IMG/VR virus record: IMGVR_UViG_3300025767_001100
Location: 1 to 22,320 of that record
Direction: 5' to 3' (one strand)
Origin: a virus
Length of the DNA stretch: 22,320 bases
Shown here: positions 4,188-21,618 of the stretch, piece by piece
How the letters are laid out: each line of letters starts with the position of its first letter
Position numbering within the stretch: the stretch's first letter is position 1
Made by a program: the position numbers and the translations under genes
The notes under the pieces: model-generated
What the model was told of the DNA's origin: nothing
Database searches by the model: none
What the model saw: the letters and a program-made list of their open reading frames with translations, nothing else

Positions 4188-4960
4188 TGCCTATAACATT
4201 AGCAGGTCCTCTTGGAAATCATCCAGGAATGAATGGATCACCACGATATAAAGCACCTACACCACAAATGGCTCCAGAAGAAAAGTCTGCTGCGGATATG
4301 ATTAAAGAGCAAGCCTCTAGTACAGCTATGGAAGCAGGCGCTGAAGCTGCTCAAGAAGCAGGAACAGAGTATATTATAGATCCATTAAAAACTAAAGCAA
4401 AAGAAATGTGGACAGGATTTACTGCTCCTGCTACCGCACCGTCATCTTCATTTATGCCTGCAGCTTTACCATCTGAACTCACAGGTCCAATGATGTCTGG
4501 ATCTCAAACTGCTACTGCTGATGCTTTACTATCTTCAGGTATGACAGGTGCAGAAGCAGCGGCTGGTGCTGGATCTATAGCTCCTGCAGTTGCATCCACA
4601 GCAGCCCCTGCAGTAGCTTCTACAGTTGCACCTACAGTAGCTGCTACAGCAGCACCCGCAGTTGCAGGACCAATGGCAGCTATGATGGCAAGCCCTCTAG
4701 CGCCTTTAGCGATTGGTGCACTTGCAGGTAAAGCTTTTGGTTTGTTTAACAAAGGTGGTCCTGTTGAACCATCTTATGCTAACATGGGTGGTCTTATGCC
4801 TATGCTTATGGAAAAAGCAAAAGAGGAAGGTATCCCAATGGGGTTAGCCTCTTTACTATATCAAGGTGGTCCTGTATCAAAAGTAAAATATGCCCAATCA
4901 GGTGGACCAGTAGATGAAAAAATTGAAGTAAGTTATCGTGGTCCATTAGCGGGTAACTAA
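4187..4960 (+). CDS. Internal virion protein, Ala-rich, with hydrophobic core and GGPV motifs
   Basis: This 257-aa protein has an N-terminal ~60 residues that are polar and helical. A Pro/Ser linker follows, then a long Ala/Val/Pro/Met-rich hydrophobic stretch (~118-187) able to insert into a membrane. It includes four tandem 8-residue units (130-161). The C-terminus contains three GGPV motifs (190-193, 227-230, 239-242), a motif that recurs in the N-terminal part of the next protein. It starts at an ATG overlapping the previous stop (TAATG), with GGAGG at about 4172-4177. It lies between the gp14-like gene and the large internal proteins, so a role in the ejected core or trans-envelope channel is likely but inferred. 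No enzymatic motif was seen. Confidence 0.55.
   Translation: MPITLAGPLGNHPGMNGSPRYKAPTPQMAPEEKSAADMIKEQASSTAMEAGAEAAQEAGTEYIIDPLKTKAKEMWTGFTAPATAPSSSFMPAALPSELTGPMMSGSQTATADALLSSGMTGAEAAAGAGSIAPAVASTAAPAVASTVAPTVAATAAPAVAGPMAAMMASPLAPLAIGALAGKAFGLFNKGGPVEPSYANMGGLMPMLMEKAKEEGIPMGLASLLYQGGPVSKVKYAQSGGPVDEKIEVSYRGPLAGN
4574..4669 (+). repeat. Degenerate tandem repeat, four 24-bp units
   Basis: Four consecutive 24-base units encode SIAPAVAS, TAAPAVAS, TVAPTVAA and TAAPAVAG in the Ala-rich internal virion protein. The units are more alike in protein than in DNA, so the repeat is old or kept by selection on the hydrophobic, Pro-kinked helix. Confidence 0.75.
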
Positions 4961-4970
4961 GGAGAGCTTA

Positions 4971-7900
4971 ATGAAACTCAAAAACTTTACTCAGAAGGAC
5001 AGATATGGGAACATGACATCTTATGACTTCTATGAGTCAGATGATAACATGGGTGTCCCAGAGATGCAGGGTATTCCTCAACATCCTGGAGGTCCTAAGG
5101 GGACTGACACTGTTCCCGCATGGTTAACTCCTGGGGAGTTTGTGATGAATGCGGAAGCTACTCGTATGTTTGAACCTCAGATTGAACAAATGAATAACGC
5201 TGGTCGTGCCGTACAAGCACAACAGGGTGGTACAATCCCTGAGTATGCTGCTGATGGTGGTCAAATGCCAGCAGCTAAAATGGATGGTAATACGTTTGCT
5301 AAAGCAGCAATGGCAGTGGGATTACCTACAGATAATGCTACGTTAAACAAACTAGTTAATTTAGTTAATCAAGGTATGAGTGTTCAAGAAGCAGCAAAAA
5401 GAATCGCTAGTGTTCCACAGTACTCAGCTAATGGTGGCCCTGTGTACCTTGCAGAAGGTAGTGGTGGGTTCTTTGATAAGCTGTTAAATATGTTTTCTAA
5501 TGATGAAACCCCAAAAGTACCAGCTGCAACTCAAGCTGTAGTACCCCCATCAAGTTCTAGTCGCGCTGATCGTGTTGCTAATTTAGTTAATGCAGCAAAA
5601 ACAGATGGTCCAACTAGACCAGACCCAACTATGTCTAATCAGATGTATATGGATTTTCTTAAAAAGAAAGAAGGGTTTCGTAATGAAGCCTATTTAGATT
5701 CTGCAGGTGTCCCAACAATTGGTTATGGGTTTACTGAAGGCGTACAAATGGGTGATACTATTGATGAGAAGACTGCTAATGATAGACTTCTTAAAGAGAT
5801 GGCAAAGACTGATCAAGACTATAACAAATTAGTAACTGCTGATCTTAATCCTAATCAACAAGCTGCTGTTAAGTCACTACTGTATAACATTGGTGGACCA
5901 CAGTTTGCTAATAGTAAAGCACGTGCTGCACTTAACACAGGTGACTTTGAGTCCTTTAAGAAAGAAGCTGCAGAGTTTCGTATGGCTGACGGTAAAGTAA
6001 TCCCAGGATTAGAAAACCGTAGGCGTGATGAGCTAGAGTTGTTCTTTAAGCCTTACAAGGCAGACAGACCTGATACTTCTAATGCCCCTATGTCAATGGT
6101 TTCTCCAGAAGAGCAAGCTACTTTTCAGAGAGATGTTGAAGCAGCACAGAAGGCTACTCGTGAGCAAGGCATGTATGATCCTGATGGAAACATGGAAGCT
6201 ATTCAAACTGGTATTGATCAAGCTCAAATTCTAGAAGATCAACGGCGTATGCAACAAGGGCAAAAACCAGTGCCTTCAATGATTGGTGCTGCAGTTCCAC
6301 CAAAACCTACTGATGATCCATTAGTATCTACAGTCCCCCCTAGTAATACATCGCGGGATGATCGTGTTGATGTGCTAAACAATGCTGCTAAAGGTGGGAA
6401 TACTGTAATAGGAACACTTCAAGGTAATGATGTTTATCAAGATGATTTAGGTGAGTACATTAACACACCTGAGGGTCCTGTGTATTTAGATGGTAATCAA
6501 CTACAAGCTATGACAAAGGCACCAGCTTCAGTCCCTTCTAGTAGTACTGTACCTGCAGTCCCTCCTAGCAATACATCGCGGGATGATCGTGTATCTAAAC
6601 TAACTGATGCTGCAACTGTCCCTAGTGCTTCGTCTAATACTGAAGTCCCATTACCTGATGATGATATATTTTCAACACCAGCTATGAGCACTGATCCAAC
6701 AGCCTCTATGCTTGCACGACAACAAGCCTTGGGGTTAGGCCCTAAAGATGTTAAACAACCTGATGTAAATGTAACCCTTAATCAAGGAGAGTATGGTGTA
6801 AACGATACTATCATTAGAGAAGATGCTAATGGTAATCCTATTACTTACAAATGGGATTCATCTAAAGATGCTTATGTTGACAATGAAGGTCTTGAGTATA
6901 ACCGTGGAATTGGTGAACGTGTATCTGGTTTATTTAAATCAGAAACTGTGGAAAACGCTGAACCAGAAACAGGTGATACACAAATTGGAACACTCAATGG
7001 TAATCCAGTGTATATGGGACAGGATGGTAAGCCATATGTTATGGAAGACTTAGAAGTTCTTGGGACATCTGCAGGTGTTCAAAAGATGAATATCCAACCT
7101 TGGCAAACCGATGACATTAAAATGTTACCTAAAGAAAACCGCCCAGTGGCTGGTCCTAAAACCCCTTCTCCTAAAGACAAAGATGGTTTAGTTCCACTAC
7201 CTATGGATACTTCTATCCCTGATGAACTTAGTGGTACACCAATGGACTCAAGTGCTGGTGTGCCTAAACTGGAAGAAGCACCTCCTCCACCTACAGTTCT
7301 TCCTGATGAACTACAACCTGGTCAAGAAATGGACAGTAATAAAGGAATAGCACTTAAAGAAGTTATTAAAAAGACTGAAGGTGATAACACTACTACTGGT
7401 CAAACAGGAGAAGCTGCAACAAAGGCAGGTGAAACAGCACCACCAGAACAGATAGACGAAGCTGAGTCTTTCTTATCAGGTATCTTTGGTGATCTCTTTG
7501 ATGCAGATGAACTTAAACGTATGGCTATTATGTATGTTGGTTCTCGTGTAATGGGTGGGTCTCATACTGGATCTATGAACTTTGCTGCTAAACAATATGT
7601 TAATCGTGTTGATGCAAAGGCAGCTGAAAAGAAAGCTTTAGCTAAAGAAGAGCGTCTTGATAAAAAAGCTGCTAGAAAAGAGTTTAATAAAAATGTATTT
7701 AAACTTGAAACAGAACGTAACTTCTCTCCTAAATCTATTAAAGCATGGAAAGATTCATACGATCCTAAAACAGGAACAGCAGATAGTTCTTTACTAAGCG
7801 CTATAGTTAAACCATCACCAATGAACATTGAAGGTCCAGCACAACTATGGTACCCTGAAGGTGGTGGTAAGCCAATCCTAGGTATAACGGTTAAGGTTGG

Positions 7901-8699
7901 GAATAAAGAAACTGGAACGACTACAATGGTTATTGATCCTAAAACACGTGAGCAAATACCAACCTATCTGTATCATCAAGATCGCTCTAGGGTAAAGAAC
8001 ACTGATGAGTATAAAGCGGCTTATCAAAAAGACTCTGCTATATATACTACAATGCTTGCAGACCTTCAAGCTAAACAGTTTAAGCCAGGGAATAAGGCAG
8101 CTAACACTGAAGATTATAGACCAACTGATATTACAGCATCAGTATCAGGTCCTAACATTGCTAAATGGCAACGTGATCACGGTGTCGATCCTAGTCTTAT
8201 GCCTCAGATTCTAGAAAGCGCATATGCAAATATGGTTGCTTCTGGTCAAAAGAGAACTGCTGACGAAGGTAAGTCTGTAAAACATAAGAACATTGAAAAA
8301 TTCTTAGACGGTGCTTATATGCCAGCGTTGGTTGGTGATGGATCAATCTTTAATGTTCCTGGTAAAGATAAACCAGGGGACTTTAAAAGGATTTCAGAGT
8401 TAACTAACAATCTTGTTCGTCAGGCTAGGGCTAATCCTAAACAGGATATTAAACCAACAGCCAAGGACCATGAAGTTGCTAAGCATATTTATACGCAACT
8501 TAAAAATGAGTTCTTAAATGGTTCATATTCAGTACCTGACCCTGATCGTAATAACCCTAATGAAACTAAAATGCAAAACATATGGACTGACGAAGAGTCA
8601 AAAGCAGACTTCCTTAAAGAAGCTGAAGAAAGAAACATATCTGCATTTGAGTTATTCATTGAGCAAAAACAAAAAGCTTATAATAGAAAACCTGTATAG
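4971..8699 (+). CDS. Large internal virion protein with embedded GH24 lysozyme domain
   Basis: This 1242-aa protein occupies the position of T7 gp15. Residues ~38-67 carry a segment typical of phage tape-measure and internal proteins (DTVPAWLTPGEFVMN). Residues ~220-370 form a T4-type GH24 muramidase domain. E234, D243 and T249 give the family spacing E-8-D-5-T in the context KKKEGF...LDSAGVPTIGYG, and a later NRRRDE helix closes the domain. It would cut peptidoglycan locally during genome entry. Three repeats of the form PPSxxSRxDRVxxLxxAA lie at 191-210, 455-474 and 530-549, and two copies of IGTLxGNxVY start at 480 and 672. Residues ~872-908 are a Lys/Ala/Glu-rich probable coiled coil. The C-terminal ~330 residues were not recognised. 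Start: ATG at 4971 after GGAG at 4961-4964. No signal peptide is present, which fits ejection rather than secretion. It is not a free lysis endolysin. Confidence 0.85.
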   Translation: MKLKNFTQKDRYGNMTSYDFYESDDNMGVPEMQGIPQHPGGPKGTDTVPAWLTPGEFVMNAEATRMFEPQIEQMNNAGRAVQAQQGGTIPEYAADGGQMPAAKMDGNTFAKAAMAVGLPTDNATLNKLVNLVNQGMSVQEAAKRIASVPQYSANGGPVYLAEGSGGFFDKLLNMFSNDETPKVPAATQAVVPPSSSSRADRVANLVNAAKTDGPTRPDPTMSNQMYMDFLKKKEGFRNEAYLDSAGVPTIGYGFTEGVQMGDTIDEKTANDRLLKEMAKTDQDYNKLVTADLNPNQQAAVKSLLYNIGGPQFANSKARAALNTGDFESFKKEAAEFRMADGKVIPGLENRRRDELELFFKPYKADRPDTSNAPMSMVSPEEQATFQRDVEAAQKATREQGMYDPDGNMEAIQTGIDQAQILEDQRRMQQGQKPVPSMIGAAVPPKPTDDPLVSTVPPSNTSRDDRVDVLNNAAKGGNTVIGTLQGNDVYQDDLGEYINTPEGPVYLDGNQLQAMTKAPASVPSSSTVPAVPPSNTSRDDRVSKLTDAATVPSASSNTEVPLPDDDIFSTPAMSTDPTASMLARQQALGLGPKDVKQPDVNVTLNQGEYGVNDTIIREDANGNPITYKWDSSKDAYVDNEGLEYNRGIGERVSGLFKSETVENAEPETGDTQIGTLNGNPVYMGQDGKPYVMEDLEVLGTSAGVQKMNIQPWQTDDIKMLPKENRPVAGPKTPSPKDKDGLVPLPMDTSIPDELSGTPMDSSAGVPKLEEAPPPPTVLPDELQPGQEMDSNKGIALKEVIKKTEGDNTTTGQTGEAATKAGETAPPEQIDEAESFLSGIFGDLFDADELKRMAIMYVGSRVMGGSHTGSMNFAAKQYVNRVDAKAAEKKALAKEERLDKKAARKEFNKNVFKLETERNFSPKSIKAWKDSYDPKTGTADSSLLSAIVKPSPMNIEGPAQLWYPEGGGKPILGITVKVGNKETGTTTMVIDPKTREQIPTYLYHQDRSRVKNTDEYKAAYQKDSAIYTTMLADLQAKQFKPGNKAANTEDYRPTDITASVSGPNIAKWQRDHGVDPSLMPQILESAYANMVASGQKRTADEGKSVKHKNIEKFLDGAYMPALVGDGSIFNVPGKDKPGDFKRISELTNNLVRQARANPKQDIKPTAKDHEVAKHIYTQLKNEFLNGSYSVPDPDRNNPNETKMQNIWTDEESKADFLKEAEERNISAFELFIEQKQKAYNRKPV
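5541..6617 (+). repeat. Three dispersed 60-bp repeats encoding PPSxxSRxDRV segments
   Basis: Copies at 5541-5600, 6333-6392 and 6558-6617 encode V-P-P-S followed by a Ser/Arg/Asp-rich core and L-x-x-A-A. The second and third share an almost identical stretch around ATACATCGCGGGATGATCGT; the first is diverged. They flank the lysozyme domain and sit in Pro/Ser-rich linkers, so they may be binding segments rather than folded domains. Confidence 0.8.
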
Positions 8700-8714: not shown

Positions 8715-11700
8715 ATGTCGATGTTTGATACTATGGCCCCCATGCCTAATAGACAACTAGAAGGTACAAGCTTTAGTATTATAGATGCTGATACTGCTGT
8801 GAACACTGACACTGGGGAGTCTTATAGATTCCCTGGTGTTGATGCACCTGAAGTACAAAAGTTTCTAGGTACTGAAAGATACACTACTGGTGAAGCTGGT
8901 GGTGAAGCAACAACAGAAGCTGTTTATAATCTAATGAATAACCTTGGGTATACAAACCCTAAGCCAAGACTTGATGAGAATGGTCAAGTACAAATGGATC
9001 GTGGTGGTACTCGTATTATTGCCGACTGGTATAATGATGCGGGTGAAAACTTTGTTGACAGAGGTTTGTCAGAGGGTATCTATAAACCTACTGAGTTCTC
9101 TAATGATGCTCAAGATTTAATCTATTCTCTTGGTCAAGCTAAAAGAGATCGTGAAGATAGACTATATGATCCTGCAGCTGAACCATCTGTTGTTACTGAT
9201 GATTGGGCTACAGCACGAGGTATGATTGCTGACGCTCTAGAGAAAGAAGGGTATCAACAGTACGGTCTTAAACGTATAGCATCTGATGAAGCTGAACTAG
9301 CTGCTGCTAAAGAAGCTGGGATGCTACAATTCTACGATCAAAACCAAGTTGAAACACGTTCAAGTGATCGTACACTTATGAACGAAGCACTAAACCCTTG
9401 GTCAGATAACTTTGAAAAGTCTCTTATAGGTATCCAGGAAAGCTGGAGTGGCCTTAAGAATATGTGGGGTGAAGCCACAGATAATGAAAACCTTGCAGAG
9501 GTAGGTCGTCTAGGTGTTGAAAGACAACGTGAACGTCTTGCAAAGTACGGGACTAGTATTGTAGACTGGAAAGATATCGATAGCTTTAGTGACGGTATCG
9601 ATTATGTTATGAACAACGCTGCTATGTCTTTACCTTACATGGCTGTGATTGGTGCATCTGCACTTGCTGCCCCTGTTGTAGGAACTGCAGCGGGTGCTTT
9701 AGGTGCTGGGTCATTACTGACAAGCGGTGTAACAATGGCTACAACTATGCTTGCCCCTGCTTCTATTTATGCTTCTCAAACTTGGAATGAGATGGAAGGC
9801 AAAAAGAATATGGGTGTAGCTGTTGGTTCAGGTATTATACAAGCTGCCTTTGAACGTATTGGTCTTGAGATCATTGTTGGTAAAACATTCGGTTCTTTTG
9901 CACCAAAGAAGCTTATGCAAGAAGCAGTAGAAAACTTAGTAACTAAGGGTGTTAAGGGTGTTAAATACAGCAGAGCAGAAGCTACTAAAATAGTTGGTAA
10001 TGCAACCCGTCAGGCAATTGCAGAGTACACAGGTGATGCTGCTAAAGCTGCTGCTTCACAGGTTGCTGCTAAACAAATTGTTAAAAACCTTTCTGCTCGT
10101 GCCTTAAAAGGTGGTGGCGGTGAGATGTTAACAGAGGGATTACAAGAAGCTGTAGCATATACCGGAGCTACTCTTGGATCCGATAAGGTCTTTGACTATA
10201 ATGAATTAGCTGATCGTATGATTGCTGGCGCTGTTGCTGGTGCTACTCTTGGTACAGCTTTCTCTGCCCCTGGTGCTATCTATGATGTGGGTGCCTGGAA
10301 AGATTTACAAGTTCGTAAGTTACCTGCAGAAGCTAAACGGTTATCAGAAGAAGGTGCACGTGCTGAACGTGAGCGTGTTGAGAATGGGCAGATTGCTTAT
10401 GATCTAGCTAAAGCTGAGGAAACACAACGACAATTAGATGCAGGTGAAACTGTAAACATGGTTGAGGTTGAAAGGGTTGCTGAAGAAGCAAGAGAAAAAG
10501 GGACTCGCGTTCAAACTATTGATGAACTCTTAGAAGAAGAACAAGAATATCTTGCTGCAATGAAAAGTAATAACTTACTTACTATGGATCAATTTAAAGT
10601 GGAACAAAAAGCAGCTAAAGATAGTGGTGCAAAAGGGTTTCCTAGTTTTGAAAAGTGGAGAGCTAACAAGAAAAAAACTTCTAAAGTAAAAGGACAAGAT
10701 GTAGAAGTTAAAAGATCTATGGTTTCAGATATGAATGATCGTAAAGCTGAACATGAAAGAGTTGAAAAAGATAACACCCTTGCTGGTGTTGTTGGTCGTG
10801 CTCTTGAAGGGTCTGTCAAACTTGTAAGGAAACTAACAAGGACTGCTGTACCAGATAGATATAGAGATAAAAAGGCAGGTAATATTCTTGGAGCTATGGT
10901 TGATTCAAGTCATTCAAAATCTAATTCTGGTAGAGACTTAGAGTCCTATAAGTTTAATCTTGTATCTATGTTTAAGAATATGGTAAGTGTACCAGAAAAC
11001 TTTTATGCTTCCTTAAACAATAACAAGATTACTAGCAGAACAAAAAGAGCAGAGATTAGTAAACAAGTATATGCAATCTTAAAGAACATAATCAAAAACA
11101 AAAGTGGTCTACCTGATATAAGTAAGATACCACAAGATGGTGAGGTTGTTACTTTAGATGGTATGACTTTCACTATGACTGGTCGAGATCAAATTGTACA
11201 GTTAGCTCAAGACTTAAACAAGTTATCAGATCTAATGCACAGTCGTCAGGCTAAGTATACTATAGATCCAAAGACTGGAAAACCTACTCTTGGTTATATA
11301 CAAAACTATTTGTTTAAGTTTAAGTCATTAAATAAGGCAGCTATTTCTGCTGATCGTGCAAAGTTTGAAGCCACATTAGTAGATCAATATAAACAAATAA
11401 CACCTGCTATGGCAAAAGAATTAACTGATAAGATACTTGAGAATGATCAGGTTAGTTCTATTAATGATGTAGTAGATGAAACCTTTAACGTAACTAAAGG
11501 TGGTATTGTACCTGGATCACATCGTAAAAGATCTCTTGCTATGTCAGAGAACCCAGAGTTCGATCAGTTTATGGAACAAGATATCTTTGCAAATGTTTCT
11601 CAGGCAGCTAAGTCTGCTGCTAGATTTGAAACACATCGTAAATACATTGGTCAAAACGGAGAGGTCATGGCATCTCTCCTAGATAAAATGGAGTATGATG

Positions 11701-13139
11701 AAGGTGTACCAAGAGAAGAAGTAAATGCTATTGCTTCTAGGCTTGTGGATTATCTTAACGCTGAATCTGGTAACTATAAAAGACCTACTTCAGATGCAGG
11801 TAAGAAAGCTGTAGCTGCACAAAAGAACCTTATGTTCTTAGCTACATTTACAATGCTTGGTTTGGCTACAGTTGCTTCTCTTGTAGAGATAGCTTTGTCA
11901 GGTCGTGCTCTTACCTTTAATCAAATCTATGGTCGTGAAGGTAAAACTTCTGGAAGAACCAGTCTTAATTCTTTTGGTAGGGAGCTTGCTAAAATGTTAG
12001 CAGACCTTATGGGATTTGCTGGTGACACTGTTCGTTGGCAAGACAAAGGTGTTGGTACACAATCAAGAGGTCAAGAGATCATACGTGATTTAGGTTACTA
12101 TGAATGGGATGTTGGTGCTGCTACTGTGACAGGTGTGTCTGAAGTTAATCCTCTACACCAGAAATGGTATGAGTTATTCTTTAAGATGACAGGTCTTACA
12201 GGGTGGACTAACTTTACTCGTTCTATGAGAGCTTCTATTGCTAATGATTTTATGTTTGATCATATTAATAAAATTGTAGAATTTAGGCAAATGAAAAGAG
12301 CCAACCCTGAACTTGTTAAAGATAATGATATCCAAGAGTCTGAAGAAATGCTTCGTAATCTTGGTGTCAATGTCGATGACGTAGCTCGTATCTATGAGCA
12401 AATGGGTGGCGATATGTCAGCGGTTTTAAGTGAAGCAGATGATGCAATCTTAACAGAAAACATGAGGACAGGTACGTTTAATTTTGTCAATGATGCAGTT
12501 GCCCTACCTACTGTTGGTAACAGACCACTGATCTATCAGGATCCTAGGTTTGCTTTACTTACACAGTTCCAGGGATTCATGGCTACATTCTCATCTAATC
12601 ATATACCTAAAATGTATGAGCAGTATATCAAGCGTGGTAACCCATCAATGAAGTACAATGCTTTTGCTTTAATGACTACTATGATTATGCTTGGGTTTGC
12701 TTCTCAGTATCTTAAGGATCTTATCAAGTATGGTGGAAGCGGTAAGCAAATGATGACTGCTGGTAACCCTTACCTTGATACCTCTGAGTATATTCAACGT
12801 GGTATTAGATCTTCAGGATTACTTGGTGTTGCAGATCGTTTAATTGATACTGCAGGTTATGGTCTTTACGATGATGGAAGAACTAAAGGTGGTCTTGATT
12901 GGGCATGGAAAACAATTTCTGGTGAAGCCCCAGCAGCTGGTATTATTAATAGAACTGGAAGAGTTGCAGAAAAAGTAGCTGAAGGAGACTTTGGTGGTGC
13001 AGGTCAACAGTTAAGTAAGATGACACCAATCTTAAGTATCTTCGGTGCTGAAAGAACTGGTCAAGTAATAGGTGATACGGCTACTGCTATCTCTGATGCA
13101 GTACCTTCATGGAGCTTTAAGGAGAAAAGTAATGAGTAA
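8715..13139 (+). CDS. Large ejection protein (gp16-like) with N-terminal SNase-like nuclease domain
   Basis: This 1474-aa protein is the largest in the window, as T7 gp16 is among T7 internal core proteins. Residues ~18-127 match the staphylococcal nuclease fold. The segment IIDADT, then YRFPGVDAPE, then DRGGTR followed by a Gly-x-x-(F/V) helix, lines up with SNase D21, R35, D40, E43 and R87 as D26, R38, D43, E46 and R100. Hydrophobic or amphipathic segments lie at ~304-352, 364-390, 502-522, 1038-1061 and ~1310-1330, suited to forming a channel through the cell envelope. Residues ~530-630 are charged and probably coiled. The C-terminus has the FALLTQFQGFMATF pattern typical of podovirus internal proteins. 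No lytic transglycosylase motif was found; muralytic function seems to sit in the preceding protein. The start ATG at 8715 follows AAGGAGA by about 7 bases. The virion role is well supported by size and context; nuclease activity is inferred. Confidence 0.8.
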   Translation: MSMFDTMAPMPNRQLEGTSFSIIDADTAVNTDTGESYRFPGVDAPEVQKFLGTERYTTGEAGGEATTEAVYNLMNNLGYTNPKPRLDENGQVQMDRGGTRIIADWYNDAGENFVDRGLSEGIYKPTEFSNDAQDLIYSLGQAKRDREDRLYDPAAEPSVVTDDWATARGMIADALEKEGYQQYGLKRIASDEAELAAAKEAGMLQFYDQNQVETRSSDRTLMNEALNPWSDNFEKSLIGIQESWSGLKNMWGEATDNENLAEVGRLGVERQRERLAKYGTSIVDWKDIDSFSDGIDYVMNNAAMSLPYMAVIGASALAAPVVGTAAGALGAGSLLTSGVTMATTMLAPASIYASQTWNEMEGKKNMGVAVGSGIIQAAFERIGLEIIVGKTFGSFAPKKLMQEAVENLVTKGVKGVKYSRAEATKIVGNATRQAIAEYTGDAAKAAASQVAAKQIVKNLSARALKGGGGEMLTEGLQEAVAYTGATLGSDKVFDYNELADRMIAGAVAGATLGTAFSAPGAIYDVGAWKDLQVRKLPAEAKRLSEEGARAERERVENGQIAYDLAKAEETQRQLDAGETVNMVEVERVAEEAREKGTRVQTIDELLEEEQEYLAAMKSNNLLTMDQFKVEQKAAKDSGAKGFPSFEKWRANKKKTSKVKGQDVEVKRSMVSDMNDRKAEHERVEKDNTLAGVVGRALEGSVKLVRKLTRTAVPDRYRDKKAGNILGAMVDSSHSKSNSGRDLESYKFNLVSMFKNMVSVPENFYASLNNNKITSRTKRAEISKQVYAILKNIIKNKSGLPDISKIPQDGEVVTLDGMTFTMTGRDQIVQLAQDLNKLSDLMHSRQAKYTIDPKTGKPTLGYIQNYLFKFKSLNKAAISADRAKFEATLVDQYKQITPAMAKELTDKILENDQVSSINDVVDETFNVTKGGIVPGSHRKRSLAMSENPEFDQFMEQDIFANVSQAAKSAARFETHRKYIGQNGEVMASLLDKMEYDEGVPREEVNAIASRLVDYLNAESGNYKRPTSDAGKKAVAAQKNLMFLATFTMLGLATVASLVEIALSGRALTFNQIYGREGKTSGRTSLNSFGRELAKMLADLMGFAGDTVRWQDKGVGTQSRGQEIIRDLGYYEWDVGAATVTGVSEVNPLHQKWYELFFKMTGLTGWTNFTRSMRASIANDFMFDHINKIVEFRQMKRANPELVKDNDIQESEEMLRNLGVNVDDVARIYEQMGGDMSAVLSEADDAILTENMRTGTFNFVNDAVALPTVGNRPLIYQDPRFALLTQFQGFMATFSSNHIPKMYEQYIKRGNPSMKYNAFALMTTMIMLGFASQYLKDLIKYGGSGKQMMTAGNPYLDTSEYIQRGIRSSGLLGVADRLIDTAGYGLYDDGRTKGGLDWAWKTISGEAPAAGIINRTGRVAEKVAEGDFGGAGQQLSKMTPILSIFGAERTGQVIGDTATAISDAVPSWSFKEKSNE
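13119..13124 (+). promoter_or_regulatory. Ribosome binding site deciding the start of the putative virion RNA polymerase
   Basis: AAGGAG lies 7 bases before the ATG at 13132, which is itself 8 bases inside the end of the preceding gene. An earlier in-frame ATG at 13072 has no such site and would add 20 residues in a Leu-rich out-of-frame reading of the upstream gene, so 13132 is preferred. Confidence 0.8.
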
Positions 13140-16100
13140 ACGTGGTCAATCATCTGCTGCTACAATAGCAGAGACAGCAACTCAAAAACTAGCAAGAGAG
13201 TCAGCATTAGCACCTGTTGTCCGAGAAGAACAAGAAGCAGTGGGGGTAGAAGAAGCCCCTGCTGCTCAACCTGTTCAGTTAACAATGTTTGACAGTATGG
13301 AACCAATGCCGGATACCCCTGAGGTTACCGATGAGGTTACCCCTGAAGTGAATGTACGTACTGTAGAAGAAGGTGCAGACCTATTTGGTGAGCAAGAGTA
13401 TAGAGAAAGCACAACCACTGGTCCACTTGTAGTGACACCAGAACAACGAGCAGAAGGGGTTGTGCCTCGTGGTCAAGAAGAGGGTCGTGTAGACCTTTGG
13501 GATTTTCGCAATAACTATTTTAATAGATCTGAACAACAGCGTAATAGGTCTATGGTGTCAGCAAGACAAGCTAATCAAGCCGTTGCTGATGATGGTGGCC
13601 TTAGTGCACGTGTGTTAAACCTAGCAGATCAAGTTGAAATAGGCAACGTTGGATTAGGAGGACTAGGTGTTAACGCTCAAGATAACGTAGCCCTCAATGT
13701 ACTAAACACTGTTAACGCTATTAACCCAGAGACTCGTAAACCAGACAGGGATTTCTTACAAGTAGCTGGACTAGTTGTAGAAGATGCTATGGCTACTATG
13801 TCTATGCAAGATGGTGTTGAAGCATATGAGTTAATGGAAGATGAGGGTGATACTTTTCAAAGTGTAAATAAAAAAGGTAAGCCTGTAACAAAAGTTGTAC
13901 CTAAAGCACAAGGCCGAGTTCAAATTGGAAGACGCATCCATAATGAATACCAGAAAATGAAAGGCGTTGAGAACCCAGTAAGTATTTCTAAAGATGATGC
14001 TGAAACCTTAGGTGATCTAGCTAAAGAATTATATTTTGCTGCTAATGAATCTGATGTTAATCCTATCATTGAGCTAATGCATATTGATAAGAACGATGGT
14101 AAGAGACCACAAAGGGCATTTAGAATCACACCTTATGGAGAAACCATGTTATCTGCTGGTACTTGGAAGAGAGCAAAGATGTTCCCTAAAGCCAAGATCA
14201 GACCTTCAAAGAGTGCTTTGAAAAAAGGTAAGCTGGTTGGTGAACCAGAGCAGGTAGTAAGAAATATCTCTGGTGCTCAAGGATCTGTAGTTGGTGCTAA
14301 ACAAATCAATGAAGCAAAAGAAAACATGTCTACAATACCTAATTATATACCACCATCTAGACTTAAGATATTATTAGCAACAGTAATGCCTGTGTTGACG
14401 GGTCAGATTACTGCAGAGAATGATGTTTTTGGATTAGCTACTATAAACCATGTGGGTCTTGATAAAAAGAATGAACTTCGTGCTCAAGCTAAACGTAAAA
14501 GACTGCCCCAGTTAGAAGAAGACCAAGAGGTTGAACGTAACTACAGTCAGTTAGTTAATAATTTAGCACAGGATGTTTATGGTATTGCATTAGAAAGACA
14601 TGGTGCAAACTTCCTTACTTATTATACGCAAGCATTCTCTGGTCGTATATCAGATGCTCAGCAGAACACACTTAACCCTACTCGTTCTAAGACTGCTAGG
14701 TTTGTTACAGCTAATGCTGTTCCAGCCAGGGTAGGTAATCGTTCAGCATCTAGTAGACGATATGAAAAAGCATTACGTCAGATGTATGCTATGACTCTTG
14801 TAGAAGGTGCAGATATATTGATACCAACTGAACGAGAGTTTATGTTGGAAACAAAATCAGCACAGCTATATGAGTGGGGAGATGTATTAAGAACTGCTAT
14901 GGATGCCATTTCTGATGCCGATGTCCAGGCGGTTGCTAATGCAATTGAACAAGGTGTTCCACTGATACTGGCAAATGGTCAACCTAATCCAGACTTCCCA
15001 CAGTTACCTAAGTGGGGATCTAAGATTGACCCTGAGGCTAATGCAGAGTTACTCAAAGCTATTAAGGATAAAGGTGAAGACGGTCAAGTATTTATAGACG
15101 GTCTTATTGACTTTGCTAATTACCAAGATAAAAGAAATAACAGAAACTCTGATGGAACTTATGAACATCAATCATTCTTTAATGCTATGATGGATGGTAA
15201 GACTAATGGTCTTGCATCTAATGGTTTACAGATGGGTGTCTATGAGATGGCTTTTAAAACTGGTATTCTTAGACAGGCTGGATCAAAGACTTTCTTAGAT
15301 GGTAATGTAGATATACGTGATCAACTTGCAGCAAACCTTATAGAAGAACTTAATAAGTCATTCAGAGGTACAGAACTAGATAGACCTGAGACCCTCAGAG
15401 ATATACTAAGTGTTGCACGTACTGTGTATCAAGATCGTGCGCTTAATAAACAAACCACGATGACGTTTCCATATGGTCGAGAGTTAGAAAGCTTTAAGTC
15501 TGATATTGAAGAACGATTTAATGTTCTTTTACAAGAGTCCCAACAACAAAAACAATTAGATATTGATAATGGTTTTTCAGATCCTGATTCATATCTTGTT
15601 GATTGGGTTGAGTCTCTTAATAGAAATAAAGTTTCTAACTCAGTAATCATTGAAACACTTCATGGTAAATACATCGATGGTCTTATGGCTACATTATCTC
15701 CTGAAGTTATTGCATCAAGAGCAATGATGCGTAGTGTTGCACAGATGGCTGGTATATCTAATGAGTTGTTCACTATTGTTTCACCTACAGGTTTTGAGAT
15801 TAATCTTGGAGGTTCTGTTAGTACAGGGCTAGATCAAGATGCTTCTAAACAAGTAAAGGTGTGGTCTCCTAAAGACAAATCTGTTAGGCCAAACCCGAAA
15901 GAAAAACTTCCTATTGGTGAAATGAAAAAGACTGAACCAGTTGTATCAAAGTATGGTGAAGTGTTTACAGCTGCTGCTGAAAAGAGATATACAAATATTG
16001 ATTCAGAGGGTAATGAAGTTATTACCTATGTCCCTGGTGATGTAGCTTATGGTGGATCTGTTCCGGCCCCTATGCATTCAATTGATGCAGCAACCGTTGT

Positions 16101-16716
16101 CAAAACCATGACAGGTAAATCATGGGATAAACTTAAAGCTAACTCTGGTGGTCATCCATATGTTCATACAGTGTATGATGCATTTAAAGTAGACGCTATG
16201 TCTTATGACACTATCCTTGAAGAAGCTAATAACAACTGGATTGATGTTAATATGAAATGGTCTTACCTTGAAGCAGCTAAGGATTCATTGTCAGAAATTG
16301 ATAGGCAATTTAATGAACGCTTTAAAGGTGTATCTGATAGTCAAGTATTAACGAACCCCACTGATACTTCTGTTATGAGGTATCTGTTAGAGTTTGATTC
16401 CAACAGTAAGGCATTGCCTGACGGATCACCTACATTTGGTTATCCTAATCTAGCTGGTAAGTTATCTAAGACACTACCCCCAGGAACGGACATTGAACCT
16501 GTCCTCCGTGGTGTTTTAAAATCGATTAATATCAAAGAAGATATAACCCTTGGGGATCTTAAACAGTTCCGAAACACAATGAAGAAGTCTCTTAATATTG
16601 AATCGAGACTGAACTCTATGATTAAAGAAACTAATGATCGTAAGGTTATATTAAAAAGAGAAATTGCTAAAGCAATACGGGAAGGTAGACCTGTGTATCA
16701 GTACTACTCTCACTAG
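13132..16716 (+). CDS. Putative virion-associated single-subunit RNA polymerase, divergent
   Basis: This 1194-aa protein is the last gene of the virion module. Read by eye it contains, in order, the landmarks of T7-family RNA polymerases. A GR motif occurs in TQAFSGRI (R505; compare DWRGR of T7). Motif A is MDGKTNGLASNG (D688; compare FDGSCSGIQH). Motif B is R769-x3-K773-x3-M-T-x2-Y781-G782 (RALNKQTTMTFPYG), identical in spacing to T7 R627, K631, Y639 and G640. A VSPTGF segment (883-888) resembles T7 VTPDGF. Motif C consists of HSIDAA (982-987) and VYDAF (D1016; compare T7 HDSFG, D812). Deviations are Ala at the T/D position of T/DxxGR and Tyr instead of His before the motif C Asp. Motif A lacks the DYSxIE of A-family DNA polymerases, arguing against that. 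The N-terminal ~480 and C-terminal ~175 residues are unassigned. Position and size suggest packaging as in N4 vRNAP; this is inference. Confidence 0.78.
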   Translation: MSKRGQSSAATIAETATQKLARESALAPVVREEQEAVGVEEAPAAQPVQLTMFDSMEPMPDTPEVTDEVTPEVNVRTVEEGADLFGEQEYRESTTTGPLVVTPEQRAEGVVPRGQEEGRVDLWDFRNNYFNRSEQQRNRSMVSARQANQAVADDGGLSARVLNLADQVEIGNVGLGGLGVNAQDNVALNVLNTVNAINPETRKPDRDFLQVAGLVVEDAMATMSMQDGVEAYELMEDEGDTFQSVNKKGKPVTKVVPKAQGRVQIGRRIHNEYQKMKGVENPVSISKDDAETLGDLAKELYFAANESDVNPIIELMHIDKNDGKRPQRAFRITPYGETMLSAGTWKRAKMFPKAKIRPSKSALKKGKLVGEPEQVVRNISGAQGSVVGAKQINEAKENMSTIPNYIPPSRLKILLATVMPVLTGQITAENDVFGLATINHVGLDKKNELRAQAKRKRLPQLEEDQEVERNYSQLVNNLAQDVYGIALERHGANFLTYYTQAFSGRISDAQQNTLNPTRSKTARFVTANAVPARVGNRSASSRRYEKALRQMYAMTLVEGADILIPTEREFMLETKSAQLYEWGDVLRTAMDAISDADVQAVANAIEQGVPLILANGQPNPDFPQLPKWGSKIDPEANAELLKAIKDKGEDGQVFIDGLIDFANYQDKRNNRNSDGTYEHQSFFNAMMDGKTNGLASNGLQMGVYEMAFKTGILRQAGSKTFLDGNVDIRDQLAANLIEELNKSFRGTELDRPETLRDILSVARTVYQDRALNKQTTMTFPYGRELESFKSDIEERFNVLLQESQQQKQLDIDNGFSDPDSYLVDWVESLNRNKVSNSVIIETLHGKYIDGLMATLSPEVIASRAMMRSVAQMAGISNELFTIVSPTGFEINLGGSVSTGLDQDASKQVKVWSPKDKSVRPNPKEKLPIGEMKKTEPVVSKYGEVFTAAAEKRYTNIDSEGNEVITYVPGDVAYGGSVPAPMHSIDAATVVKTMTGKSWDKLKANSGGHPYVHTVYDAFKVDAMSYDTILEEANNNWIDVNMKWSYLEAAKDSLSEIDRQFNERFKGVSDSQVLTNPTDTSVMRYLLEFDSNSKALPDGSPTFGYPNLAGKLSKTLPPGTDIEPVLRGVLKSINIKEDITLGDLKQFRNTMKKSLNIESRLNSMIKETNDRKVILKREIAKAIREGRPVYQYYSH

Positions 16717-16719
16717 AAT

Positions 16720-16777
16720 AAAAAAAAATACCCCTACTAGAATCCAATTAAGGAAACTAGTAGGGGCTTTTTTATTT
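16720..16777. terminator. Bidirectional rho-independent terminator between convergent modules
   Basis: A perfect 10-bp inverted repeat (CCCCTACTAG at 16731-16740 and CTAGTAGGGG at 16757-16766) has a possible inner TCC/GGA pairing in its loop. On the + strand it is followed by C and six T; on the - strand by the complement of an A-tract (16720-16728), so it can stop transcription from both sides. The + strand T-tract overlaps the stop codon of the leftward 82-aa gene, and the A-tract begins 4 bases after the stop of the polymerase-like gene. Confidence 0.93.
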
Positions 16778-17024: not shown

Positions 17025-17032
17025 ATCTCCTT
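17025..17032 (-). promoter_or_regulatory. Ribosome binding site of the 82-aa gene
   Basis: AAGGAGAT on the - strand, spanning the polymerase TAA stop, sits 4 bases from the ATG at 17020 (6-7 bases from its GGAG core). It decides the start in favour of 17020. Confidence 0.8.
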
Positions 17033-19349
17033 AGGCAAAGAAGTAATCAGATTCATAGATCTGTGTTACATCTAGATCACCTAGTTGTGGTTGCTCAACG
17101 TCAAGGTTAGTAGCATCAGTGATGATGTTGTCTTGAATTAAGTCATAGTAATTTCTTTTATCGTACATATCGATAAAGGTTTGTTTTGTTCTTGCTAGTA
17201 ATGTTTCAACATCACATGCATGAGTACTAAAGGAATCATGTACTGCTCCGAAGTCACCATTCCAGTCTTCAATAACCAATGCCATATGGCTTGCATCTTG
17301 GCTGTGAATGTAGTTGGGGCTGACACCACACATGAATCCGCGAATATCTGGGGTCTTTGTAGGTACTCTTGCCACATGGTTTACTCCTTTGTGTCCCTTA
17401 GAGTCAGTCTTGTATCCACTTATCGTACCTCTACATTTACGTGTAGCTGTCGTAAAGTTTTCATAGGTCACTTTAAACCCTGAAGGAGTAATCCATTTGA
17501 GTTTATCTCTACCATTACCGTAGATCAGTTTACTTTTAAAAGATTTTAACTCAACAGTCAGACTGTTTAACTCTTCTATTTCTTCATCGGTTTTATCTTT
17601 CTTCGTATAGAGTTCCTTCTGATCCTTAACAAGTTGTTTGTATTCAGGTCCAGCAACATCCCCATTGGGGCAGAACTTCTTATACTCACCGATCTCATAC
17701 TGTGCAATCTTCTGTAAGAATGCCATCGTATGTAGGGGTCCTGGGCATACCATGTTGATTGCTTTGATTAGTAACTTAGATAACTTATCACAGTCATCTT
17801 GTGTTATCCCATAAGTAAGATGGAAGTCTTCTGTCTTACAATCAAAGAACATGTTTTCAGCAATCTTTCTAGCACCTGCAGAGTAAGCTCGTGTCATACT
17901 ACCACGTTTAGATATACCTTTTCTGATGTGTTTCATTGGCATCTGATCTAAGATACCTTTAAGACGATCATCAGTGACAAGGTTATATAATTGCTTTGCA
18001 GTCTGAACATAGAAGTCATACTGTATATCTACTGGTACAAGGCCTACAAGCTTCCCTGTGTGGCTGTCCTTAGAAATAGCACCTAGATGCTGCCAACCAT
18101 TGTTAGACCCGTCTACGGGCACTGGAAGGTGGCTTATGTAGATTCTATTATCTTTGACTGCCTTTTGATAATCATACCATTCAAAGCAGCAAGCAAGGAA
18201 TGATACAGGTTTCTCTGCTATATCAGCAATGATAGACTCTCTACCCATTTCAATTAGGACATTCATGTTATCATTAGTCCATCGTACTCTATCCTCAAGT
18301 GTAAACTTATCTACACTGATAGACTCTAGCCCTTCTTCTTGTAGGTACTTCTGGTATTCACCTTCACACCACTCAGGTAGTTCATCGATGTTATAACTTT
18401 GGTTGAAACTACTTGCTGTATGTACAGCTAACCAGAAGAGTCCATCCTCTGTCATGGGTTTACCCCTGGCAAAACACATCATACCCCTGGCAAGATCAGA
18501 CCCCTGGTAGTTTAAGAAAGACTCTGAGTAATAAAGTCTACCACGATAATCAGCTTGCATGTATTGATAGAACACATCATGTTCGTACAGAAGCTTAGCT
18601 TTTGTAGTGATGAAACCCCACTCAACATTCTTACTTCTACGTTTCATTTCTTTAGCATCATTATCTTCGATGGGTACGGATGAAACAAAAGAATCTTTGT
18701 TGTTTATTAAAGCATCGTAGACTCGTTGGTTAATACGCCAACCTGTCCTCTGTAAATTATCTACTGCTTTAATCCAGGGTTGTCCAATCATTGTACGGAA
18801 CTCATCGTTGTCCTCTTCTGTCCAGTTTTTGATTAGGGGTTCACCATCTGGTTGTGTAACCTTTGTTATTCTTTCTGGTCTTTCCAGTACTGTGTGGTTG
18901 AGAGAGATTCTCGACAATGCCTCAGGGATATCTGCTAGGTCAATCCATTTAGCTGTAGCTGATACAATATAACTAGTATCCCTTGTCTTGGGGTAGTACA
19001 GGTTAATGTATCCACAGTTAAAGAAGGCTTCGATAAAGAGATCACCCAACCTTACGTGCATATTCCAGGGTAACCCAGGTGGTTCCCTTTTTATCACACG
19101 TGCTACACGTTGTCCTATTGCTGTGGATACAGCAGTTAACTGTGCAGTCCCTGCAGGACTATCGGAGGTATCGTAGGTGAATCTCATTTGTATTGTCTGA
19201 AATGCAACAGCAACTAACTGTGGCATATCTTCTTTGTATTCTTTGTATAACCTCAAGAGTACACCACCTGAGTTAGCCTTAGGGTTATTTGGATTAACCC
19301 TTGAGACTTTCTCGACTAGGTACTCTGAGATCTGATCGAATGGATTCAT
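17031..19349 (-). CDS. T7-type single-subunit DNA-dependent RNA polymerase
   Basis: This 772-aa protein (T7 has 883) would transcribe phage genes from phage promoters. All core motifs are present: DYRGR (D267-R271), motif A PVDGSNNGWQH with D413, motif B KGISKRGSMTRAYS with K481 and Y489, TPSGF (~621-625) before the promoter-specificity region, HSQDASH (682-688), and motif C HDSFSTHA with D705. The protein ends in DYFFA, close to the FAFA end of T7 polymerase, whose carboxyl terminus lies at the active site, so the C-terminus is intact. The N-terminal domain is about 150 residues shorter than in T7, so promoter binding and any lysozyme-type control may differ. A charged helical insertion at ~555-605 separates motifs B and C. 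Unlike T7, where the polymerase is the first phage-class gene, here it lies near the end of the replication operon, after ThyX. ATG at 19349 follows an AGAGGA site. Confidence 0.97.
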   Translation of the reverse strand: MNPFDQISEYLVEKVSRVNPNNPKANSGGVLLRLYKEYKEDMPQLVAVAFQTIQMRFTYDTSDSPAGTAQLTAVSTAIGQRVARVIKREPPGLPWNMHVRLGDLFIEAFFNCGYINLYYPKTRDTSYIVSATAKWIDLADIPEALSRISLNHTVLERPERITKVTQPDGEPLIKNWTEEDNDEFRTMIGQPWIKAVDNLQRTGWRINQRVYDALINNKDSFVSSVPIEDNDAKEMKRRSKNVEWGFITTKAKLLYEHDVFYQYMQADYRGRLYYSESFLNYQGSDLARGMMCFARGKPMTEDGLFWLAVHTASSFNQSYNIDELPEWCEGEYQKYLQEEGLESISVDKFTLEDRVRWTNDNMNVLIEMGRESIIADIAEKPVSFLACCFEWYDYQKAVKDNRIYISHLPVPVDGSNNGWQHLGAISKDSHTGKLVGLVPVDIQYDFYVQTAKQLYNLVTDDRLKGILDQMPMKHIRKGISKRGSMTRAYSAGARKIAENMFFDCKTEDFHLTYGITQDDCDKLSKLLIKAINMVCPGPLHTMAFLQKIAQYEIGEYKKFCPNGDVAGPEYKQLVKDQKELYTKKDKTDEEIEELNSLTVELKSFKSKLIYGNGRDKLKWITPSGFKVTYENFTTATRKCRGTISGYKTDSKGHKGVNHVARVPTKTPDIRGFMCGVSPNYIHSQDASHMALVIEDWNGDFGAVHDSFSTHACDVETLLARTKQTFIDMYDKRNYYDLIQDNIITDATNLDVEQPQLGDLDVTQIYESDYFFA

Positions 19350-19364
19350 ACAATCCTCTTTCTG

Positions 19365-20006
19365 TTATGTTAGGCACCCCCAACTAACAGGGGCGATATT
19401 TTTAATACAGTCACCAAACATCTTGGCTAGTTCTTGTATCTCTACTTGTGCATGTTCATCAGTTCGTTGAGAGTAGATACGTGCAGCAGATGCTAGTGAT
19501 CCTGTCTCTACCCATTCAGTCATCATAGACTGGGGTAAGATCATACGTGCTTGCTCAGGGCAAATACCTTGAGCTAACATTTTTTCATAGCATGTAATAG
19601 CGTTCTCATGTATATCCCTTAGGTACTTACTAGGGAAGTATTGAGACTTAGCGTTACCACTGGAGCCTTGCTTAGCACCATCTGTTGGCTTAGCTCTCCA
19701 TGTGGTAGGCTCATAGAACTCTGGTGTTGTGTCTACATACCTCCGTGATACTTCATTACGTGTGATACCAATCATATGTTTGAACCACTGCCTCGCTACA
19801 AAGATAGGTGCTTTGATACGTACTTGGTATTGTACTTGACTGAAGGGTGTCCAGTGACCATGCTGTGCTAGGTACTGGATAAGTCTTTTATCACCATCAG
19901 TATACTCTGATCGTTGTTTATTAAAGGAGACTCTAGCAGCATTCACTACTGCTAGGTCACTCCCCATACTATCAATCAGTGTTACTTCAAATCGTGAAGT
20001 ATTCAT
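19365..20006 (-). CDS. thyX: Flavin-dependent thymidylate synthase ThyX
   Basis: This 213-aa enzyme makes dTMP from dUMP with FAD, NADPH and methylene-tetrahydrofolate, and so feeds phage DNA synthesis. Landmarks are NAARVSF (~22-28), HWTPFSQ (~51-57), the ThyX signature region 72-90 ending NEVSRRY, EQARMILPQ (~151-159) and QRTDEHAQVEIQ (~180-191, the dUMP-binding Arg and AQxEI helix). The signature departs from the textbook RHRxxSxNxxSxRY: RHR is replaced by KHM-type residues with one extra residue before NE, and Thr stands near the usual Ser. I recall similar variants in marine phage ThyX proteins. I place the start at the ATG at 20004-20006 because of AGGAGG five bases upstream; a TTG codon precedes it. 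It overlaps the end of the primase-helicase gene by about 20 bases and lies between it and RNA polymerase. Confidence 0.95.
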   Translation of the reverse strand: MNTSRFEVTLIDSMGSDLAVVNAARVSFNKQRSEYTDGDKRLIQYLAQHGHWTPFSQVQYQVRIKAPIFVARQWFKHMIGITRNEVSRRYVDTTPEFYEPTTWRAKPTDGAKQGSSGNAKSQYFPSKYLRDIHENAITCYEKMLAQGICPEQARMILPQSMMTEWVETGSLASAARIYSQRTDEHAQVEIQELAKMFGDCIKNIAPVSWGCLT

Positions 20007-21618
20007 CAAACCCTCCTGATGGTACTAGTCTTGTTGTCTTATTGTTGTACGTAGAACTTCCGGCAGGTCCTGTAAGTCCGGTGAATCTAGACTTGAGTAC
20101 TTTGAACTTGATTGTGTTTCGTTCTGACTCTGACTCTGCGACAAGGTTTCTTGAGAAGGCAATGATGTCGAACGAGATCTGCTTGATCGAACCACTGCCT
20201 TTGATATCATCGATAGATGCGATGTTCCCTTCTTCAAAACTTTTACCTCCTTGGGCTTTGCGTAGGTGTGAGATGAGACCCAACCATACATTGTGTTTCT
20301 TTACAACCTTAAGAAGGTCAGACATTACTTTATCCACCGCTTCGTTACCAGATAGCCCTTCAGAACCTTCTGATACCGCGATAGTAATGTGGTCAAGAAC
20401 GAGGTACTTGCAACCCATAAGGGCCATGTATTCGATCTTATCGATAAGAGATGAGTCCCCAACGGAGCCTTGGTGATCCAAGAGAACCAGTCGCTCGTCA
20501 CCGAACACAGCTTCGTATCCGCGTCTAAGTTCCTCTTCACTAGTTGGTGGAGGATCCATGATGTTACGTTTAAGTTGCATTGAGATAAACTTTTCGGCTG
20601 TATCTCCAACACTTTCTTCCAGACTAATGAGTCCAACCTTATCACTTGTCTTAGCAAGAAGGTCAAGAATAATCTCTTTAATGACAGTAGACTTACCACT
20701 ACCAGTGCCAGAGGTAAACAGAGTAATCTCACCATAGCGTATCCCCTTTAGTTTTTCATTGAGTCCACTCATACAGTCAGGATAAGGTACAGACTCTACG
20801 TTTTGTCTTGATTTAAATTGTTCCCATACTGCTTCTCCTGTTACAATACCTGCAGGTGACCACACTTGGGCAGTGAAGATAGCATCATTAAGAGACTTTG
20901 GACCATGCTTAATCAGTACTTCACATGGATCTTTCTCTTGTAATCTAGCAACTCTTACCTTTCCGGCACTAAACATTTTAGCTGCAGCATCCTGTGCTTT
21001 TTGACCTGCATCATCTTGATCAAAACAAAGTACAATTTCTTTGAATGAATTGATCCAGTCACGTTGTTCTAGTAATCCTCTCAGGTTAGATGCTGATGGG
21101 ATTGACACAACATTCCAGATCTTTTTACTAGTGCTTAGCATACTCTGGGCTACAGCACAGGCATCCAGTTCACCCTCAGTGATGACTAGTCTATGCTTAC
21201 CAGCGACACATACAGACTGACCAAACAGTTCACAGTCTTTGAAGTCACCATGGGTCTTGAACTCTTTTGGTAGTTTACGTTCTTTGTAAGCGACAGTGAT
21301 ACCGTGTTTTGTATACGGATAGAAGTGTGCTTCAGGTAGACCTTCACTTGTCACACTCATTTTGATATTGAAGTGATCTATTACTTCTTGAGAGATACCA
21401 CGAGAAGTAATAGGGTAGCTACGATAATTATTGATATCGGAGAATCTAGTAAGCTCAGTAAAGGTGGTGGGTTCATAACTGTCCATGTTTGTTTCTACTT
21501 TCTTTGATTTACCACAGCTGAAGCAGTGACCTACTCCATCAGTGTATGTTGTAAATGCATCGGAGCTACCACATTCAGGGAATGGGCAGGGTCCTTTAGT
21601 GTATCTTCGTTCATTCAT
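19987..21618 (-). CDS. Bifunctional DNA primase-helicase (T7 gp4-like)
   Basis: This 543-aa protein unwinds DNA at the replication fork as a ring and primes lagging-strand synthesis. The N-terminal zinc-binding motif has C11, C16, C32 and C35 (CPFPEC...HCFSC). A TOPRIM primase core follows, with E148 (VITEGE) and D200/D202 (LCFDQDD). The RecA-type DnaB-family helicase domain has Walker A TSGTGSGKST (K309), Walker B YLVLDH (D409), a helicase H4-like ISH (H451) and an arginine-finger region IAFSRN. The length is close to T7 gp4 (566 aa), so the protein looks complete and both activities are expected. Start: ATG at 21618, directly after the TAA of a possible 31-aa ORF, with only a weak GGA-type ribosome site, so coupling is likely. 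It overlaps thyX at its 3' end. Confidence 0.96.
   Translation of the reverse strand: MNERRYTKGPCPFPECGSSDAFTTYTDGVGHCFSCGKSKKVETNMDSYEPTTFTELTRFSDINNYRSYPITSRGISQEVIDHFNIKMSVTSEGLPEAHFYPYTKHGITVAYKERKLPKEFKTHGDFKDCELFGQSVCVAGKHRLVITEGELDACAVAQSMLSTSKKIWNVVSIPSASNLRGLLEQRDWINSFKEIVLCFDQDDAGQKAQDAAAKMFSAGKVRVARLQEKDPCEVLIKHGPKSLNDAIFTAQVWSPAGIVTGEAVWEQFKSRQNVESVPYPDCMSGLNEKLKGIRYGEITLFTSGTGSGKSTVIKEIILDLLAKTSDKVGLISLEESVGDTAEKFISMQLKRNIMDPPPTSEEELRRGYEAVFGDERLVLLDHQGSVGDSSLIDKIEYMALMGCKYLVLDHITIAVSEGSEGLSGNEAVDKVMSDLLKVVKKHNVWLGLISHLRKAQGGKSFEEGNIASIDDIKGSGSIKQISFDIIAFSRNLVAESESERNTIKFKVLKSRFTGLTGPAGSSTYNNKTTRLVPSGGFDEYFTI
20012..20017 (-). promoter_or_regulatory. Ribosome binding site of thyX
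   Basis: AGGAGG on the - strand, 5 bases before the ATG at 20006 and inside the end of the primase-helicase gene, supports ATG (not the adjoining TTG) as the start. Confidence 0.8.

Follow-up and report, generated by a model that had tools for sequence, protein, structure and literature searches.

A compact candidate virion RNA polymerase of the single-subunit type in uncultured, mostly marine phages

Packaged single-subunit RNA polymerases (RNAPs) have hitherto been treated as a hallmark of N4-like phages; the virion RNAP (vRNAP) of phiKZ and the tape-measure RNAP of P23-45, which are also carried in the particle, are multisubunit-type enzymes of the cellular, double-psi-barrel kind. Here, we describe a phage gene at positions 13132-16716 (plus strand) of the window, that is, of the entire IMG/VR record IMGVR_UViG_3300025767_001100 (22,320 bases), whose product of 1,194 amino acids (aa) contains no cysteine and, judging from conservation, profile match and predicted fold, appears to be a compact virion-type single-subunit RNAP. 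It would share with phiKZ and P23-45 the presence of a polymerase in the particle, in spite of belonging to an unrelated polymerase type.

The closest described system is the vRNAP of N4, gp50 (Schitoviridae; mini-vRNAP structures PDB 2PO4, 3C2P and 3C3L), whose catalytic residues are R424, D559, K670, Y678 and D951 (PMC2784036). Enzymes of this type range from 2,842 to 3,820 aa (PMC10654107), and their lack of cysteine has been linked to the passage through the tail (PMC3915230, PMC2784036). Outside the Schitoviridae, large cysteine-free internal virion proteins of StenR_269 and of Zobellviridae have been proposed as putative vRNAPs from their size, helicity, absence of cysteine and low-confidence models (PMC10747016), a proposal similar in kind to ours, although the family described here is backed by motifs, a profile match and a predicted fold. 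The window polymerase resembles N4 vRNAP in its predicted fold (over 763 residues), in having counterparts of all five catalytic residues (D1016 being paired with D951 through the T7 alignment and motif comparison), in its DGxTNG motif A, in the absence of QH after that motif, in the aromatic residue preceding the aspartate of motif C, in the lack of cysteine, and in its place as the last gene of an ejection operon facing the replication genes. Unlike N4 vRNAP, it is about a third of the size, without the N-terminal domain of ~1,000 aa and the C-terminal one of ~1,400 aa, it lacks the glutamate of the ExDGxxxG motif, it gives no match to PHROG 2206 with HMMER, and it co-occurs with a T7-like RNAP. 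An assignment to Schitoviridae gp50 was rejected on the grounds of size and of the ExDGxxxG motif. In a published study that looked for N4-like viruses in IMG/VR, vRNAP hits were discarded if they fell below 2,500 aa or did not have ExDGxxxG (PMC10654107), and the window family passes neither filter.

Polymerase motifs, fold and relatives

The open reading frame (ORF) is intact, begins with an ATG at 13132 preceded by a GGAG Shine-Dalgarno sequence, and overlaps the stop of the upstream 1,474-aa gene by 8 nt. An earlier note, made from the letters of the window, had taken this ORF for a divergent single-subunit RNAP lying after two large internal proteins and overlapping the upstream gene; its coordinates, length and residue numbering are correct (D688, R769, K773, Y781, D1016), the two preceding genes (1,242 and 1,474 aa) and the overlap are there, and all the motifs that it listed are present. 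In order along the plus strand, these are R505 of a GR motif (14644-14646; N4 R424), D688 in motif A, DGKTNG (15193-15195; T7 D537, N4 D559), motif B (15436-15474), the HSID segment of residues 982-985 (16075-16086), which the T7 alignment makes the counterpart of T7 HSQD, and D1016 in motif C, YDAF (16177-16179; T7 D812, N4 D951), with D688 and D1016 as putative metal ligands. Motif B reads R769-ALN-K773-QTT-MT-FP-Y781-G, with a spacing identical to that of T7 (R627/K631/Y639 in T7; R666/K670/Y678 in N4). By itself, this motif turns up in 0.8% of composition-preserving shuffles of the protein, but the ordered composite DGxxNG...Rx3Kx7YG...SxDA...[YH]D[AS]F was found in none of 200,000.

Conservation was assessed in 29 non-redundant sequences, the relatives being 23-48% identical to the window protein. 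R505, D688, G689, K690, T691, K773, Y781, G782, D985, D1016, A1017 and F1018 are invariant, and position 769 holds arginine in 26 sequences and lysine in three. Loss of D688 or D1016 in relatives, which the earlier note had named as evidence against its claim, is thus seen in none of them. The context of motif A is AMMDGKTNG in the window protein and AYIDGKTNG in relatives. As for the GR motif, the arginine is kept and falls on N4 R424 in the alignment; the D/T of the canonical D/TxxGR is absent, this position being mostly A, G or S in the family. Taken with the profile match to N4 and the predicted fold, the conservation across the 29 sequences shows that the motifs reflect real homology.

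At the level of single sequences, the window protein yielded nothing significant in Pfam, in a PDB sequence search or in PHROG scans, and the family profile run against PDB sequences returned chance helical matches only; 19 of the 29 family members, taken singly, match PHROG 414 (T7-type RNAP), the best at E=3e-7. Comparison of profiles goes further: against an alignment of 13 N4-type vRNAP cores the family gives a probability of 96.9% (E=1.5e-10), against a T7-type alignment E=6e-4, and against an unrelated control 0.27. The N4 alignment places R505, D688, R769, K773 and Y781 on R424, D559, R666, K670 and Y678, and that with T7 stays in register between motif A and motif C, HSxD included, pairing D688, R769, K773, Y781 and D1016 with D537, R627, K631, Y639 and D812.

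The fold predicted by AlphaFold2 from the 29-row alignment (pLDDT 76.7, pTM 0.75) is that of a single-subunit RNAP, so that the absence of a right-hand polymerase fold, which the earlier note had seen as fatal to its proposal, is not what the model gives. The first 151 residues (13132-13584) are predicted to be disordered (pLDDT < 50) and vary among relatives. In a Foldseek search of the PDB, all the matches listed are T7, mitochondrial or N4 RNA polymerases (E 3e-13). The structural comparisons that the earlier note had called for, made with VIA-align, gave Z=28.0 with T7 RNAP (538 residues, 4.6 Å) and Z=23.6 with N4 mini-vRNAP, residues 151-1194 of the model aligning with 86-1063 of N4 (763 residues, root-mean-square deviation 8.0 Å). 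The modelled protein therefore corresponds roughly to the N4 catalytic module alone, without the giant flanking domains of the latter. By profile match, conserved residues and predicted fold, the window polymerase is a genuine, very divergent single-subunit RNAP, whose RNA synthesis is itself a prediction. The framing of the protein around T7 in the earlier note holds for the motifs, which are in register, whereas its sequence profile lies closer to N4 vRNAP. Compared with T7 RNAP and its Autographiviridae relatives (PHROG 414), the right-hand fold and the register of motifs A, B, HSxD and C are alike, and the weak profile match, the absence of cysteine and the location among virion proteins are unlike; the true T7-like enzyme of the window phage is the product of the neighbouring gene.

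The phages that carry the family form a large uncultured group, most of them being marine. One relative, 93% identical to the window polymerase, was found directly, those at 34-40% identity were exposed through the loci around the neighbouring T7-like RNAP, and the family profile then retrieved 54 loci from IMG/VR plus two contigs from bacterial bins. The latter (L095 and L096), assigned to Bacteroidetes and Dehalococcoidia metagenome bins, are probably mis-binned phage. Full-length relatives measure 1,117-1,385 aa. Among cultured and annotated phages, none of 50,697 annotated phage records gave a relative when searched by tblastn with three members of the family, and no report of the family was found in the open-access literature, a scope that leaves aside many subscription papers. 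The nearest candidate is gp33 of Roseobacter phage CRP-7 (MK613349; hypothetical), which is similar in size, free of cysteine, convergent with a T7-like RNAP and placed after gp34, a homologue of the 1,474-aa protein (hhalign E=6e-13). It carries K-x3-R-x7-YG and IHDA segments where motifs B and C would be, but with K and R exchanged in motif B and with only fragments of the motifs kept. On the CRP-7 genome (L003, 17859-29367), gp33, gp34 and gp35, all annotated as hypothetical, resemble the cluster of ejection proteins and putative polymerase.

Three relatives (L024:9602-13756, L053:9536-13561 and L069:9851-13705) carry between the PTG segment and SxDA an inserted NADAR-like domain of ~110 aa (VEHAYQ, LMxIRD), which is absent from the window protein and sits in the region of the T7/N4 specificity loop. 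The insert matches PHROG 1017 at E=2.5e-9 and Pfam NADAR at 1e-4, under the Pfam cut-off. Because NADARs take ADP-ribose off guanine (PMC11125620), it could, by analogy, be an ejected counter-defence against DarT-type toxins.

Ejection operon and cysteine content

In the window, the polymerase closes a plus-strand operon of virion proteins, in which two small genes (3540-4960; 215 and 257 aa) precede a large internal protein with a phage lysozyme domain (4971-8699; 1,242 aa) and a large ejection-type protein that matches a virion structural PHROG (8715-13139; 1,474 aa). Immediately downstream, a bidirectional terminator-like hairpin (16719-16776; stem 16731-16740/16757-16766) separates it from the convergent replication module on the minus strand, which holds the T7-like RNAP (17031-19349; 772 aa, PHROG 414 E=6e-101) followed by a ThyX thymidylate synthase and a primase-helicase (19365-21618). 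Wherever the contig is long enough, the 59 relative loci keep the same succession of a homologue of the 1,474-aa protein, the polymerase, the convergent T7-like RNAP and the primase, and in all relatives of sufficient length the ejection-protein operon ends with the polymerase. In relatives, the replication module also contains a separate T7-type DNA polymerase.

Neither the polymerase nor the two large proteins upstream contain any cysteine in 3,910 aa, as opposed to 12 cysteines in the T7-like RNAP of the window and 11 in the primase. Across ten relative genomes, the polymerase orthologues have a single cysteine in ~12,100 aa and the T7-like RNAPs, which share its fold, 109 in 7,554 aa (~14 per 1,000 aa); within the family, 24 of the 29 members have none and five have one. 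N4 gp50-gp52, T7 gp15 and gp16, and CRP-7 gp33-gp35 are cysteine-free as well. Three independent lines, namely the place in the operon, the absence of cysteine and the closest profile match being to the packaged N4 enzyme, give good, if indirect, support to what the earlier note had proposed from position, a polymerase packaged in the virion and, by analogy with N4, probably injected with the DNA to start the transcription of the phage genome.

The relation of these phages to the Schitoviridae was approached in one relative genome (G001), where, of seven hallmark genes including N4-type portal, major capsid protein, DNA polymerase and TerL, the comparison covers the portal and major capsid protein assignments versus N4. 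The portal (L115:5439-7631) belongs to PHROG 1216, as does that of N4, the major capsid protein to a PHROG other than N4's, and the DNA polymerase to the broad T7-type phrog_17; when the late ORF families of this genome were set against N4 gp50-gp60, vRNAP and portal alone matched below 0.01. The shared portal group hints at a head-and-ejection module in common with the Schitoviridae.

Promoters and a proposed transcription cascade

Clade-specific promoters of T7 type, for example TAAGTTCCTTATAG or ATACCCCTTATAG, lie upstream of the structural genes of relatives, one of them facing the replication module. Repeated intergenic motifs of this clade-specific kind (TAAGTTCCTTATAG, ATACCCCTTATAG, ATAAGTCCCTTTAG and AGTCCCTATAGGA) were observed in the genomes of L025, L031, L032, L039, L044, L053, L060 and L070, and they probably serve the T7-like RNAP as promoters. 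Some relatives show an enrichment of intergenic hairpins in their early regions; these are not called promoters, since no loop or stem sequence is common to them within any genome.

Two further noncoding elements were observed in relatives. One is a conserved stretch of ~370 nt on the early strand (L107:19370-19740, minus; 15 aligned copies in L138-L153), which forms a chain of stem-loops, folds far better than its shuffles (z=-10.5, -147 kcal/mol) and has no match in Rfam; the copy in L148 lacks ~38 nt spanning one stem-loop. The other, on the contig of L053 (G009, oriented 40711-40780), consists of three perfect hairpins in tandem, with loops of 4 nt, flanked on either side by a CCTAGAGTACACTTAGGGATACTTATA repeat, and sits where the early and late modules meet, as a candidate origin or promoter region.

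The following course of events can be proposed. The polymerase would be made late, together with the ejection proteins, and then kept in the head, to be ejected before the DNA or together with it, by way of a channel formed by the two large upstream proteins; once in the cell, it would most likely transcribe the early strand, that is, the replication module including the gene of the T7-like RNAP, and its movement may help to draw the DNA in. Transcription would next pass to the T7-like RNAP, which has promoters of its own before the structural operon and the replication module. Given that the gene of the T7-like RNAP lies within its own promoter-driven module, another polymerase must transcribe it first, a role that an ejected polymerase would fill, with the host RNAP as a possible alternative.

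Alternative explanations and significance

As a whole, the reading of this protein as a compact vRNAP, made late, stored in the head, ejected and transcribing the early strand before a relay to the T7-like RNAP, is in our judgement likely. Several points weigh against it. A repeated hairpin promoter of the N4 type was sought in the relatives and none was recognised, and the early region of the window phage lies beyond the window. Cysteine is scarce in further virion proteins of these phages too, so its absence fits any virion location. The match of CRP-7 gp33 to the family profile is weak (E ~0.01) and its AlphaFold2 model is unusable, for which reason this positional counterpart is left as an undecided member of the family. 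Moreover, what is known of packaging and activity comes from sequence and a structural model.

The same gene might encode a working RNAP that is not packaged and is expressed late in the cell for special late or replication genes. Non-packaged T7-like single-subunit RNAPs do exist in the same genomes, and packaging in these phages is deduced from genes rather than from virion proteomics; we hold this to be improbable, because the near-total loss of cysteine is unlike every T7-like RNAP examined, the gene closes the ejection operon at a fixed position and is translationally coupled to it, and the packaged enzyme of N4 is what its profile matches best. The opposite departure, an ejected structural or channel protein that has kept the polymerase fold and lost the polymerising activity, would agree with a polymerase located where an ejection protein would be, with the disordered and variable N-terminal 150 residues, and with CRP-7 gp33, which retains motif fragments only at the same place. 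It is still less probable, as none of the catalytic residues varies among 29 sequences, even at 23% identity, which would be difficult to account for in a protein that does not catalyse. A DNA polymerase of family A, or a primase-like enzyme, shares the same class of right-hand fold, and one viral DNA polymerase A entry appeared at E=1e-3 in a viral structure library; however, the top fold and profile matches are all RNA polymerases, better by at least 10 orders of magnitude, and relatives have their separate T7-type DNA polymerase. That reading was rejected on the fold ranking and we regard it as extremely unlikely.

If the polymerase is packaged, as the compact vRNAP reading has it, the strategy of carrying a single-subunit RNAP in the virion would extend to a separate group of phages in which a T7-like polymerase is also encoded and the packaged enzyme is a third as large as that of N4. 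A broader view, for and against which we see about equal grounds, is that of a widespread uncultured lineage in which the first transcripts come from a compact packaged vRNAP and the rest from the T7-like RNAP, the former enzyme being a near-minimal ejectable vRNAP that would render the giant terminal domains of N4 unneeded for ejection. With its smaller protein, the family is suited to the question of how a polymerase in folded form traverses a phage tail, and it may serve as a natural experiment to tell the parts of N4 vRNAP that are for ejection from those that are for transcription.

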